Assembly (NCBI GenBank): GCA_024434165.1
Contig: QMIW01000050.1
Coordinates: forward strand, 1-61,700
Direction: 5' to 3'
Length of the DNA: 61,700 bases
Source of the DNA: Chloroflexota bacterium
GTDB taxonomy: Bacteria > Chloroflexota > Anaerolineae > Anaerolineales > Villigracilaceae
This document shows positions 32,774 to 37,876 of this stretch, one piece after another. The first letter of the stretch is position 1, and each line of letters opens with the position of its first letter. A model generated the notes under the pieces. That model was not told the origin of the DNA, did not search any database, and was given only the letters and a program-made list of their open reading frames with translations. Position numbers and translations under genes: made by a program.

Positions 32774-33069
32774 GTAGTCGGTCGAAATAAATTTTACAAA
32801 AACATGCTCTCGGCGGCGGGGCTTGAGCGGGAATTTGTTATCCAAACTCAAGTTGCCACCTTCCAATAGATTTTCTAGGTTCCCCGCCCAAAGCCCTCAC
32901 CCTGCCCTCTCCCATCGGGAGAGGGGGAAGTCATCCCAGAAGACCTGCCCTCTCCCATCGGGAGAGGGGGAAGTCATCCCAGAAGATATAACCTTGTTTG
33001 GGGTGAGGGAAGCCGCTTGAAACCAAGGCAGCAACTCGGGTTATCTAATGACTTACGACCGACCACTTA
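32771..33069. mobile_element. MITE-like repeat, family A copy 3 with nested family B repeat
   Basis: The 299-bp element begins TAAGTAGTCGGTCGAAATAA and ends TTACGACCGACCACTTA. It is inverted relative to copy 1. Between about 32837 and 33043 it holds a family B repeat, with only short family A ends on both sides, so family B appears to have inserted into family A. Its first TAA is the stop codon of the CRP-family gene. Confidence 0.7.
32837..33043. repeat. Family B repeat, copy 1, with internal duplication
   Basis: AACTCAAGTTGCCACCTTCC opens and GCAGCAACTCGGGTT closes it. CTGCCCTCTCCCATCGGGAG and the next 25 bases occur twice in tandem. The reverse complement matches 37652-37806 except for this duplication. 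Confidence 0.75.
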
Positions 33070-33734: not shown

Positions 33735-35072
33735 TTACTGGTTTGTCTCAGCGTAATAGGTGTCTGTGATCAACAGGGATGGGTCGTTGACGGACTGCGC
33801 CGCCAGCATCTGGGCTTCGCGCGCCAGGTTCGCAGACTTGGCGAGCACGGCGAGCGCATACTCAGGGTTGTGGAAACCGGTGGAGTTCTCGGCGGAGATG
33901 AAGTCCCACATGAACTGCGCTTCGCGGTGCAGTTTGCGCGCCTGATCGAGCAGTTCCGCATCCGCATCCGGGTTTGCCGCCGCCAGTTTGATGGCATGGA
34001 TGGCATCGAGGATGGCGTCTTCGGTGGCGATCTTGGTCTCGGCAACCTGCTCCTGGATGGTGGCGACACGTCCCACCACATACTCGGTATCGGTGTGACA
34101 TTGTCCGCAGGCTTCCTCGGGGTTCAACAGCGGACTGTGGACATCGTGCGAAGAATACTTGCTCGCGCCATCGCGCACGTAAGGCATGTGGCAGTCGGCG
34201 CAGGCAACGCCCGCTTCGGAGTGTGTGCTGCCGGCGGTAAAGAACTCATATTCGGGGTGCTGGGCTTTGAGCATGGGACTGTCGGTTTCGGGATATGCCC
34301 AGTCTTTGAACCCGGCTTCTTCGTAGTAGGCGATGATCTCTTCCACCTTCGTGCCGTTATCCCAGGGGAAGGTCAGGTATTTGCCGTCGCCTTTGAAGTA
34401 ATATTCCACATGGCAGTTCGCGCAAACGACCGTCCGCATCTCCTGGCGCGAGAAGGTCGTCCAATCCTTGCCCTGGCGTTCGAGCGCTTCTTCCAGCGCA
34501 GGGTTGGTGACGATCAGGCGCATCGTGCCGGCTTCGTGGCAGTTGGCGCAGCCGATGGGGTTTTCGATGTTGGGCGTCATTTCGTTGAACGACATCGCAT
34601 CGTAGGCTTCCATGCCCAGTTCCTTCCACAAACCCGGGTTGTCGGAGGATTTGCAGGAATAGCAGGTGGCGGGCGTGCGCTTGGGATCGGAATCATCCAG
34701 GTTCAGGCGCTTGGTGGCGCGCACATCCTCCAGCGCGTTGGCGTGACCGCGGTCATCGTTGTAATCCTTGCTGAAGGGATACCCCGCAAACAGAATGACC
34801 TGGCGCGGGTCGCGCTCGAGCCACGAGAACGCGGACGAACCGCCGTACGTGGTATCCACGTTGTTGGTCTTTGTTTTCATGAACGTATCGTACTGGTTGG
34901 GGAAATTCACCGCCCACCTGGATGAGTCGGGTTCCATTTCCGCAATTTCCACCAGCGGCTGGACGGTACGTTGTTCCACCGGCTGGTTTTGCATGTACAC
35001 CAGCACACCCACCAGCACGGCGGCAAGCACGATCACCAATCCAGCAAGAATGAGGGTTGTATAGTTTTTCAT
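33735..35072 (-). CDS. nrfA: Ammonia-forming cytochrome c nitrite reductase, catalytic subunit
   Basis: The 445-aa protein has one N-terminal membrane anchor and five haem sites: CYSCK for the catalytic haem (Lys-ligated, typical of NrfA), then CANCH, CANCH, CADCH and CGQCH. It reduces nitrite to ammonium with six electrons in the extracytoplasmic space. The length and order match NrfA rather than octahaem relatives. The start is the second ATG of ATGTTCATG, because AAGGAG is at the right distance for it. It follows nrfH by 11 bp and is cotranscribed. Formation of the haem bonds needs a cytochrome c maturation system; a CcdA protein is encoded at 55152-55874. Confidence 0.97.
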   Translation of the reverse strand: MKNYTTLILAGLVIVLAAVLVGVLVYMQNQPVEQRTVQPLVEIAEMEPDSSRWAVNFPNQYDTFMKTKTNNVDTTYGGSSAFSWLERDPRQVILFAGYPFSKDYNDDRGHANALEDVRATKRLNLDDSDPKRTPATCYSCKSSDNPGLWKELGMEAYDAMSFNEMTPNIENPIGCANCHEAGTMRLIVTNPALEEALERQGKDWTTFSRQEMRTVVCANCHVEYYFKGDGKYLTFPWDNGTKVEEIIAYYEEAGFKDWAYPETDSPMLKAQHPEYEFFTAGSTHSEAGVACADCHMPYVRDGASKYSSHDVHSPLLNPEEACGQCHTDTEYVVGRVATIQEQVAETKIATEDAILDAIHAIKLAAANPDADAELLDQARKLHREAQFMWDFISAENSTGFHNPEYALAVLAKSANLAREAQMLAAQSVNDPSLLITDTYYAETNQ

Positions 35073-35083
35073 GAACATTCTCC

Positions 35084-35569
35084 TTACTTGGTCGGATAAA
35101 GATACGAATCCTGATACGGGGAGCCGGAACCGCCGCGCTGCCCATGCGCCGTATCGCGGTGACATTCCCAGCAGTATCGGTCGAACGGCTGCTCCCCCAT
35201 CATGACGGTTTCCACGGTATCTTCGTGGCAGTGGATGCAGTTCTTCTGCACGATGTCCCTGGTCTGCTTGTTGGCGCGGATCATAACCGGGATGTTCCCC
35301 GTCACGAAAGCATAGGTATCCTTTGCGCCCTGCCGCCCCTTCTCAAGGTAATACACGACAAAATTATCGTGAGGCAGGTGGCAGTCGGTGCATTTCGCAA
35401 ACTTGGAATGTCCTCCGTGATACCAGTTTTCATATTGCGAATCCATCGCGTGGCAGTTGGCGCACGTCTCCGGCGCATCCCCGCCGTACGCGGCGGCATC
35501 AGACACCAGCGCGAAGTATCCCAAGGCAATGACCGCAGCCGCAATGGCAATGATAGGAAGTTTAGACAT
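35084..35569 (-). CDS. nrfH: Cytochrome c nitrite reductase, quinol-oxidising membrane subunit
   Basis: The 161-aa NapC/NirT family protein has a single N-terminal helix and four haem motifs: CANCH, CTDCH, CIHCH and CWECH. It takes electrons from menaquinol and passes them to NrfA. GHSKFAKCTDCHLPHDN is the segment near haem 2 that is typical of NrfH. It is the first gene of the nrfHA unit. The upstream region carries a CRP-type site (35628-35643) and a TATATT -10 box at 35606-35601. Confidence 0.95.
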   Translation of the reverse strand: MSKLPIIAIAAAVIALGYFALVSDAAAYGGDAPETCANCHAMDSQYENWYHGGHSKFAKCTDCHLPHDNFVVYYLEKGRQGAKDTYAFVTGNIPVMIRANKQTRDIVQKNCIHCHEDTVETVMMGEQPFDRYCWECHRDTAHGQRGGSGSPYQDSYLYPTK

Positions 35570-35841: not shown

Positions 35842-36267
35842 TTGATGACTTTGGAAAATTACCTGGCGGAGGCGGGCGCCCTCGCCAGCCTGGCGGGCAT
35901 CCTGGCAGGCTTTTCGCTGACAGCAGTCGTTCAATTCCTGACGGCAGGCGGCAACAAAGGCAGGCTCGAAACTGCCGAAATTATCATCTTTTCCGCCGCA
36001 TCGGTGATGTTTTTATATTCGCTGATCGTCGCCGTCCTGACCTTTGCCGCCGCCGCGGAGTTGAACCGCATCCCAATCGAATTGGAGAACCTGAACATCG
36101 TCGCGTTTCTGATTCTGTGCGCCGCAATCTACGTTTTTCTGGCGGGCATCGGCGTGGCGGGATGGCTGCGGTCCAAAATTGCGGGGGCGCTGACCACGGT
36201 CTTTGCAATCATCTCCATGTGCATGGTCTCATACGCGCTGTTTGCGGTCCTGGCGGTTTTCGGATAA
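35842..36267 (+). CDS. Small integral membrane protein of unknown function
   Basis: The 141-aa protein has four predicted helices (LASLAGILAGFSLTAVVQFL, EIIIFSAASVMFLYSLIVAV, IVAFLILCAAIYVFLAGIGV and TTVFAIISMCMVSYALFAVL) and short loops. ATG follows CCGGAGGAAAATCCCTTG. No family is recognised. It is divergent from nrfH, sharing the 272-bp regulatory gap. Confidence 0.65.
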   Translation: MMTLENYLAEAGALASLAGILAGFSLTAVVQFLTAGGNKGRLETAEIIIFSAASVMFLYSLIVAVLTFAAAAELNRIPIELENLNIVAFLILCAAIYVFLAGIGVAGWLRSKIAGALTTVFAIISMCMVSYALFAVLAVFG

Positions 36268-36558: not shown

Positions 36559-37038
36559 CTACGGCATCGTATTGTGACCGTCCATGCCGGAGCCGCCCAT
36601 GTCGGCGGCGTCCTGTACGGGGATCGTCAACGTAACATCCTCATGGGTTTGGAAATGCAGCGTGAGGGTGATTTCGCCGCCCGCTTTCAGTTCCCTTTTC
36701 AAGCCGATCAGCATCACATGATAACTGCCGGGTTTGAGTTCGAGTTCCGTCCCGGCGGGCAGGTCAATTTTCTCCTGCTTCATCATCTGCATGGTGCCGT
36801 CCGCGCCCGTCTGGCTCAGGTGGATTTCCACCGCGTTCGCCGCATCCGATGAGGCGCCTACAAGGGCGTCGTCGGCGCCGGTGTAATTGCCGATCAGCAT
36901 GTAGGCGGCGCTGTTACCGTCCATCATCCCAGCCCGCGCCCAGTATTCCGTAACCTGCATTCCCTCCCCGCCAGCCGCCGAGCCGCAGGCGGCTAACAAA
37001 AACATCCCCACCAATCCAATCATCAACGCTTTCTTCAT
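36559..37038 (-). CDS. PCu(A)C family copper chaperone, lipoprotein
   Basis: The 159-aa protein has a lipoprotein signal (lipobox LLAAC) and the DUF461/PCu(A)C copper site: VEIHLSQTGADGTMQMM and PGSYHVMLIGL, an HxnMx21HxM-type pattern. These chaperones carry Cu(I) to cytochrome oxidase or other sites outside the cytoplasm. A Met/His-rich tail (MGGSGMDGHNTMP) could bind more copper. It is preceded by the DeoR-NosL regulator gene at 44 bp in one unit, which supports copper control. Confidence 0.88.
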   Translation of the reverse strand: MKKALMIGLVGMFLLAACGSAAGGEGMQVTEYWARAGMMDGNSAAYMLIGNYTGADDALVGASSDAANAVEIHLSQTGADGTMQMMKQEKIDLPAGTELELKPGSYHVMLIGLKRELKAGGEITLTLHFQTHEDVTLTIPVQDAADMGGSGMDGHNTMP

Positions 37039-37081: not shown

Positions 37082-37642
37082 TCACTTCGGCGCGTGCATC
37101 ATGCTTTTTAAGTGTGCAAGCGCTTCCTCCATGCCCGCCAGCGTTCCGCCAAACCCCATTTGAAACTTCCTGGCATCCTGGCGGGATGCGAAACTCAGGA
37201 CGCTCGGCACACAGCACACCCTGATTTCGCTCCCCAGCAGGTAGAACGCCTGGTTCGCGCTGACCATGTGTCCGTGCAAAAAATCCGCGGTCAGCGATTG
37301 CCAGGCTGTTTCCGCCCGGCTTTGAATCATCAGCCCGCAGTGGGCGCAGCAGGCGCGTTTCTCTTCTCCGTTCTCAAACTTCACAAGGAAGATAGTCCGC
37401 TCCGCCGATGGTTTGCCGCACATGGCGCACGCATACCCGCCCAAAGGATGCGGTGGTTCTGCCAGCACCGCGCCGCCATGCCGTTTTTGGATATGCCCCG
37501 CCTCTTCGAGTTTCTTCAAATCCCGATGGATGGTCATGTTCGAGACGCCAAACGCCTCCACCAGTTCTTGAATGGTGGCTCTGCCGTGCGCTTGCAGGTA
37601 TTCGAGGAGTTTCTTTTCGCGGTCGAGTGAAGAAGCGGTCAT
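37082..37642 (-). CDS. DeoR-type HTH regulator fused to a NosL-like metal-binding domain
   Basis: The 186-aa protein starts with a DeoR-like winged HTH (LLEYLQAHGRATIQELVEAF, VSNMTIHRDLKKLEEAGHI). From residue about 68 it has CAMCGKPSAERT, ACCAHCGL, then ANQAFYLLGSEIRVCCVPSV and FASRQDARKFQMGFGGTLAG. The second half follows the pattern of NosL, the copper chaperone of nitrous-oxide reductase (CPxCGM at the start, xxAxYVxGS and the AFxxxxxAxxFxxxxGG end). I infer a copper- or other metal-responsive repressor of the PCu(A)C gene. Several Cys pairs give candidate ligands. I know of no described regulator of this design. Confidence 0.7.
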   Translation of the reverse strand: MTASSLDREKKLLEYLQAHGRATIQELVEAFGVSNMTIHRDLKKLEEAGHIQKRHGGAVLAEPPHPLGGYACAMCGKPSAERTIFLVKFENGEEKRACCAHCGLMIQSRAETAWQSLTADFLHGHMVSANQAFYLLGSEIRVCCVPSVLSFASRQDARKFQMGFGGTLAGMEEALAHLKSMMHAPK

Positions 37643-37651
37643 TGTTATATT

Positions 37652-37806
37652 AACCCGAGTTGCTGCCTTGGTTTCAAGAGGCTTCCCTCACCCCAAACAA
37701 GGTTATATCTTCTGGGATGACCTCCCCCTCTCCCGATGGGAGAGGGCAGGGTGAGGGCTTTGGGCGGGGAACCTAGAAAATCTATTGGAAGGCGGCAACT
37801 TGAGTT
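37652..37806. mobile_element. Family B MITE-like repeat, copy 2, with 5-bp target duplication
   Basis: The 155-bp element has imperfect inverted ends, AACCCGAGTTGCTGCC and GGCGGCAACTTGAGTT. It is flanked by ATATT on both sides (37647-37651 and 37807-37811), a likely target duplication. It matches the reverse complement of 32837-33043. It has no ORF. Confidence 0.75.
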
Positions 37807-37876
37807 ATATTATGTTATCTTTCTCAGGAATTGCCCCAATATAACAAGTGAGGTTGGATGGAAGCAAGGACTTTTG

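Follow-up and report, generated by a model that had tools for sequence, protein, structure and literature searches.

A YcnK-type predicted copper repressor and its predicted operator upstream of a PCu(A)C chaperone gene in Chloroflexota

The closest described system is YcnK of Bacillus subtilis, reported as a Cu-dependent repressor of the ycnKJI operon, whose expression is reportedly raised under copper starvation (PMC8424229, PMC12154828, PMC13344008). These sources, as far as their accounts go, are split on the sign of the effect: one speaks of a 'Cu-dependent' repressor (PMC8424229), whereas in another Cu is 'proposed to antagonize' YcnK (PMC13344008). Two further systems offer partial parallels. 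Archaeal CopR/CopT, which serve copper homeostasis, are described as fusions of an HTH with a metal-sensing TRASH domain; going by that description they resemble the regulator reported here, but are linked to the exporter CopA (PMC7830388). NosL carries a conserved CXM motif (PMC6530538), and NosL and the organomercurial lyase MerB are described as sharing one fold, derived from duplicated TRASH treble clefs (PMC4999995).

The window analysed here, a 61,700-nucleotide stretch of Chloroflexota DNA, contains an open reading frame of 186 amino acids (37082..37642, minus strand) that an earlier note, made from the sequence alone, had read as a DeoR-type HTH fused to a NosL-like domain. Pfam, structure prediction and fold search all bear this out. 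The winged HTH (residues 8-62; 37457..37621, minus strand) matches Pfam HTH_DeoR at E 5.3e-19 and agrees with the secondary structure of the model, and the NosL-fold domain (residues 65-181; 37100..37450, minus strand) carries C72, C75, C98, C99, H101, C102, C143 and C144. Within it, the NosL profile matches residues 122-173 (E 3.4e-7), passing the curated cut-off. The structure model, built from an 81-sequence alignment, has a mean pLDDT of 93.1 with a weak linker at residues 66-68; its top Foldseek match is NosL (E 2e-6), and residues 65-181 superpose on NosL 7og7 with a VIA Z of 14.9 and an rmsd of 2.2 over 113 residues. The cysteine groups that the note had picked out are present in the translation as C72-A-M-C75-G, C98-C99-A-H-C102-G and V-C143-C144-V-P-S-V, as is the AxYxxGS-type end (AFYLLGS); the proposed FxxGG motif is also there, at F160-Q-M-G-F-G-G166, although its actual form is F-x-x-G-F-G-G.

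The likeness to NosL (7og7, 7osf) extends from the fold to the C-x-M motif, which appears in the window protein as C72-A-M; the differences are the HTH fusion and the extra cysteines. In addition, the Ala-Met of 7osf aligns with C143-C144 of the window protein, and the Met of C-x-M, although part of the conserved NosL motif, varies across the HTH-NosL family. By inspection the protein begins with its HTH and no lipobox or signal peptide was seen, unlike the exported NosL lipoprotein. The genes nearby do not form a nos cluster, and this gene gave the single NosL match in a profile search of the window's genome. The sugar-phosphate sensor domain of DeoR/GlpR type is absent, as NCBIfam DeoR-family models match residues 4-63 only. 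No full-length relative was found among the PDB sequence-search matches considered (all 28 in one set, the best 60 of 83 and the best 60 of 100 in the others); for the sensor half, NosL is the best match.

From sequence comparison, the regulator is very likely a relative of YcnK. One homologue, L161, aligns with the window protein at 30% identity over 175 amino acids (single-comparison E 4e-31), matches the same two Pfam families, HTH_DeoR and NosL, and shares with it all seven cysteines and H101. We take L161 to be YcnK itself, its sequence being 99.5% identical over 190 amino acids to the YcnK sequence; the long open reading frame that follows it reads by eye as CopC/CopD, presumably what the position of ycnJ would predict. 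Genome G345 is likewise assumed to be a Bacillus, its protein being 90% identical to YcnK, and in the genus of L161 and G345 one match each was found at E 1e-12 in 26 of 44 genomes. The two regulators are thus alike in domain order, in near-equal length, in their seven cysteines and histidine, and in preceding a copper-uptake or copper-delivery gene. They differ in that YcnJ stands next to YcnK and PCu(A)C next to the window regulator, at only 30% protein identity, and the conserved block upstream of Bacillus-type ycnK genes is other DNA than the operator described below, from which we conclude that DNA recognition has diverged. The suggestion in the earlier note that a NosL-type sensor domain in a copper regulator would be new does not hold, because YcnK is a published repressor with the same Pfam domains and cysteines, and a new architecture is thereby ruled out. 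The HTH-NosL design is already known; what is newly described is its Chloroflexota version with its likely DNA target, for which searches of open-access literature, a body that omits most subscription papers, produced no title.

The distribution of the family extends the Bacillus copper switch to Chloroflexota and other groups. A relatives search of 101 genomes gave matches in 75, mostly to the HTH alone; a close full-length orthologue is present in 23 of the 57 genomes of the window's genus, the window's own counted, the others being 60-68% identical to the window protein. From a scan of species genomes we named the best 80 of 572 confirmed loci, which by record title belong mainly to Chloroflexota, Geobacter- and Desulfo-type bacteria and Bacilli. 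Seven cysteines (C72, C75, C98, C99, C102, C143 and C144) do not vary across 81 aligned sequences, and H101 hardly does; the invariance of C143/C144 is partly selected for, because one of the two collecting patterns contains their CC. Judged from this alignment, the motifs are more than chance. All 81 members match HTH_DeoR and 68 match NosL, the remaining 13 lacking a NosL Pfam match at E 1e-3. A sample of 299 genomes from the class of G102, a member from the Bacilli, gave matches in 30 at E 1e-25. At an E limit of 1e-10, homologues were not found in phages, and plasmids yielded two Stenotrophomonas records at 33%. A paralogue at 33-35% identity occurs in six genus genomes; in five of these (G007, G016, G022, G042 and G051) it is convergent to an adjacent PCu(A)C gene, and in the sixth (G019) the contig ends about 240 bp on.

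The copper link of the regulator is strong as judged from its gene neighbourhood and its homology to YcnK, in good agreement with the note's proposal of a copper regulator. As the note had stated, the gene directly precedes that of a PCu(A)C copper chaperone, a lipoprotein (36559..37038, minus strand; Pfam PCuAC, E 4.3e-33). The two share a strand, and the chaperone ATG falls 43 bp past the regulator stop; the chaperone is the presumed target and the two genes are likely one transcription unit. Upstream of the regulator are open reading frames that look by eye glycosyltransferase-like and SbcC-like. The same-strand arrangement with PCu(A)C directly downstream recurs in 22 of the 23 close genus orthologues, and in the exception (G028) the contig stops 3 bp past the gene. 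PCuAC is also present in 27 of the 34 genus genomes without a close orthologue, and is therefore independent of the regulator. Around the best 80 loci, with genes called by a simple greedy ORF caller, a same-strand next gene was found in 60 (20 had none, some of them at contig ends): 24 of these encode PCuAC, 9 SCO1 and 8 YtkA, followed by rarer families seen one to four times each (PepSY_TM, CtaG, CopC, CopD, NosL and others; at most twice each for CtaG, CopC and CopD). Most of the SCO1 and YtkA cases come from the second batch of loci, largely from Bacilli, where they number 8 and 7 of 26. The genome of the window has three COX2-domain matches, and these proteins are possible clients.

These neighbours also bear on whether the signal is copper at all. 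With the same family and the same operator, the regulator could respond to another thiophilic metal or to redox stress (Zn, Ag, Hg or cysteine oxidation), PCu(A)C then being one of several envelope responses. Some next genes do match SCO1, AhpC-TSA, Redoxin (thioredoxin-type) or DsbD_2, the thioredoxin-type families overlapping with SCO1, and the NosL/MerB fold is described as serving mercury chemistry as well, in MerB (PMC4999995). We nevertheless consider a signal other than copper improbable, as the neighbours that recur are those of copper handling (PCuAC, SCO1 and YtkA, less often CtaG, CopC and CopD) and the characterised homologue YcnK is reported to respond to copper (PMC8424229, PMC12154828, PMC13344008).

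Upstream of the regulator we identified a conserved inverted repeat that is its predicted operator. In the window this takes the form GTTATATT-N26-AATATAAC (37804..37845, minus strand), with a -10-like TATATT in the left arm and, 18 nt from it, a -35-like TTGCTT (37862..37867, minus strand) assigned by eye as a consensus match only; the latter element is TTGACA-like in many orthologues. Most close orthologues share a near-constant upstream block, in which a TTGACA-like -35 is followed by TTGTTATATT at the -10 and by ATAACAAAATATAAC just 5' of the start codon, and across the genus the operator occurs as GTTATATT-N16/26/27-AATATAAC over the -10 box. Four genomes have a span of 32 bp, one of them, G030, with a 42-bp pair besides; elsewhere the span is 42-43 bp. 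Since these spans differ by about one helical turn, the two arms probably lie on one face of the helix.

A scan of the 57 genus genomes for the exact pair GTTATATT-N10-40-AATATAAC returned exactly one site in each of 20 of them, always immediately 5' of the regulator; the backward control of the paired pattern matched in 3 of the 57. The pair is present in 20 of the 23 genomes with a close orthologue versus 0 of the 34 without (Fisher p 1.5e-12, treating related genomes as independent), and the remaining three orthologue genomes (G033, G034 and G052) carry near variants. The exact pair alone was used because a single 14-base arm, allowing up to 2 mismatches, is hardly commoner than its backward control (741 versus 673 matches in 15 genomes). 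On the same counts, a regulon beyond the regulator's own operon was rejected, although weaker second sites are possible.

Taken together, it is highly probable on sequence grounds that the gene encodes a YcnK-type copper-responsive repressor that controls both itself and the PCu(A)C operon; we argue for repression and autoregulation because the operator overlaps the -10 element. With enough copper in the cytosol, Cu(I) would bind the cysteine cluster of the regulator, and the Cu(I)-loaded protein would sit on both operator arms and block RNA polymerase. When copper is scarce, the regulator would leave the operator, and both it and the PCu(A)C chaperone would be made, the latter presumably supplying copper to the CuA-type centres of oxidases. 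We infer the copper signal from YcnK together with the neighbour genes, and the direction of the copper effect would be that of the reports on YcnK, from which it is borrowed. A precise predicted operator and a PCu(A)C target would offer a ready test of copper rationing in mostly uncultivated bacteria.

The layout of the operator weighs on the alternative that its occupancy recruits polymerase under copper stress, making the protein an activator or a dual regulator. A model of allosteric transcriptional activation has been proposed for the archaeal HTH-TRASH protein CopR (PMC7830388), but in the orthologues the -10-like element falls within the left arm and the start codon is close to the right one, a repression-type layout, and YcnK is reported as a repressor; we therefore regard activation as very unlikely. 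That the protein is instead a local regulator of the nitrite reductase genes nrfHA, which lie beyond PCuAC (33735-35569; NrfH and NrfA by Pfam), copper being incidental, is hardly credible: a few related loci do have nrfH/nrfA-like genes between two and five genes downstream, but an opposite-strand open reading frame (35842-36267) separates nrfH from the PCuAC gene in the window, no more than 4 of the 36 loci scanned have a NapC/NrfH-type match at +2, and the exact operator pair occurs singly in each genome that has it, next to the regulator.

A MITE-like repeat of approximately 155 bp (37651..37807, edges approximate) intervenes in the window between the predicted operator and the start codon, placing the two about 160 bp apart. 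The repeat has inverted ends (TAACCCGAGT...ACTTGAGTTA) and repeated TTATAT flanks. Of 167 candidate places from a search of its own genome, 40 were scored, this one among them, and the remaining scored places are 93-99% alike; a further copy lies in the window at 32845-33043. The orthologues compared lack the repeat in the interval between operator and gene. Both operator arms are whole in the window, and the enlarged distance could disturb control of the regulator.

The shared fold raises the question of how HTH-NosL proteins relate to MerB, an enzyme where the window protein is a predicted regulator. MerB structures are the Foldseek matches directly after NosL, at E 2.6e-4 and weaker, with an rmsd of 13-15 Å and a TM of about 0.4. 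Aligned with MerB by hhalign, the HTH-NosL profile extends over 162 columns into both domains (E 3e-4, probability 38%), the middle of the alignment being out of register. MerB was not among the best 60 of 100 PDB sequence-search matches, nor among the 50 VIA matches listed, which are mostly HTH chains. A correspondence of the MerB residues that we take to be C96, D99 and C159 with C99, C102 and C144 looks good by eye; hhalign did not align these residues, and we therefore do not claim it. According to a published analysis, alignments with NosL and TRASH proteins are too poor for rooting MerB, and no other suitable paralogue is available in the databases (PMC8261052). It is conceivable, though we hold it doubtful, that no living proteins are closer kin to MerB than the cytosolic HTH-NosL copper sensors, in which case MerB would stem from a regulator of copper by conversion of its sensor cysteines into catalytic residues; if so, these sensors would supply the outgroup for MerB that the same analysis calls missing.

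In five Chloroflexota loci (L264, L270, L274, L275 and L278) that encode MerB-like proteins, the MerB domain has a single in-frame TGA; its context is similar in all five, and by eye it falls in the catalytic-Cys column. A MerB-like protein with an in-frame TGA was flagged also at G000:C121:20561-20959. These proteins are candidate selenocysteine forms, and a Sec-containing MerB-like protein, SaoL, has already been listed (PMC13188914).
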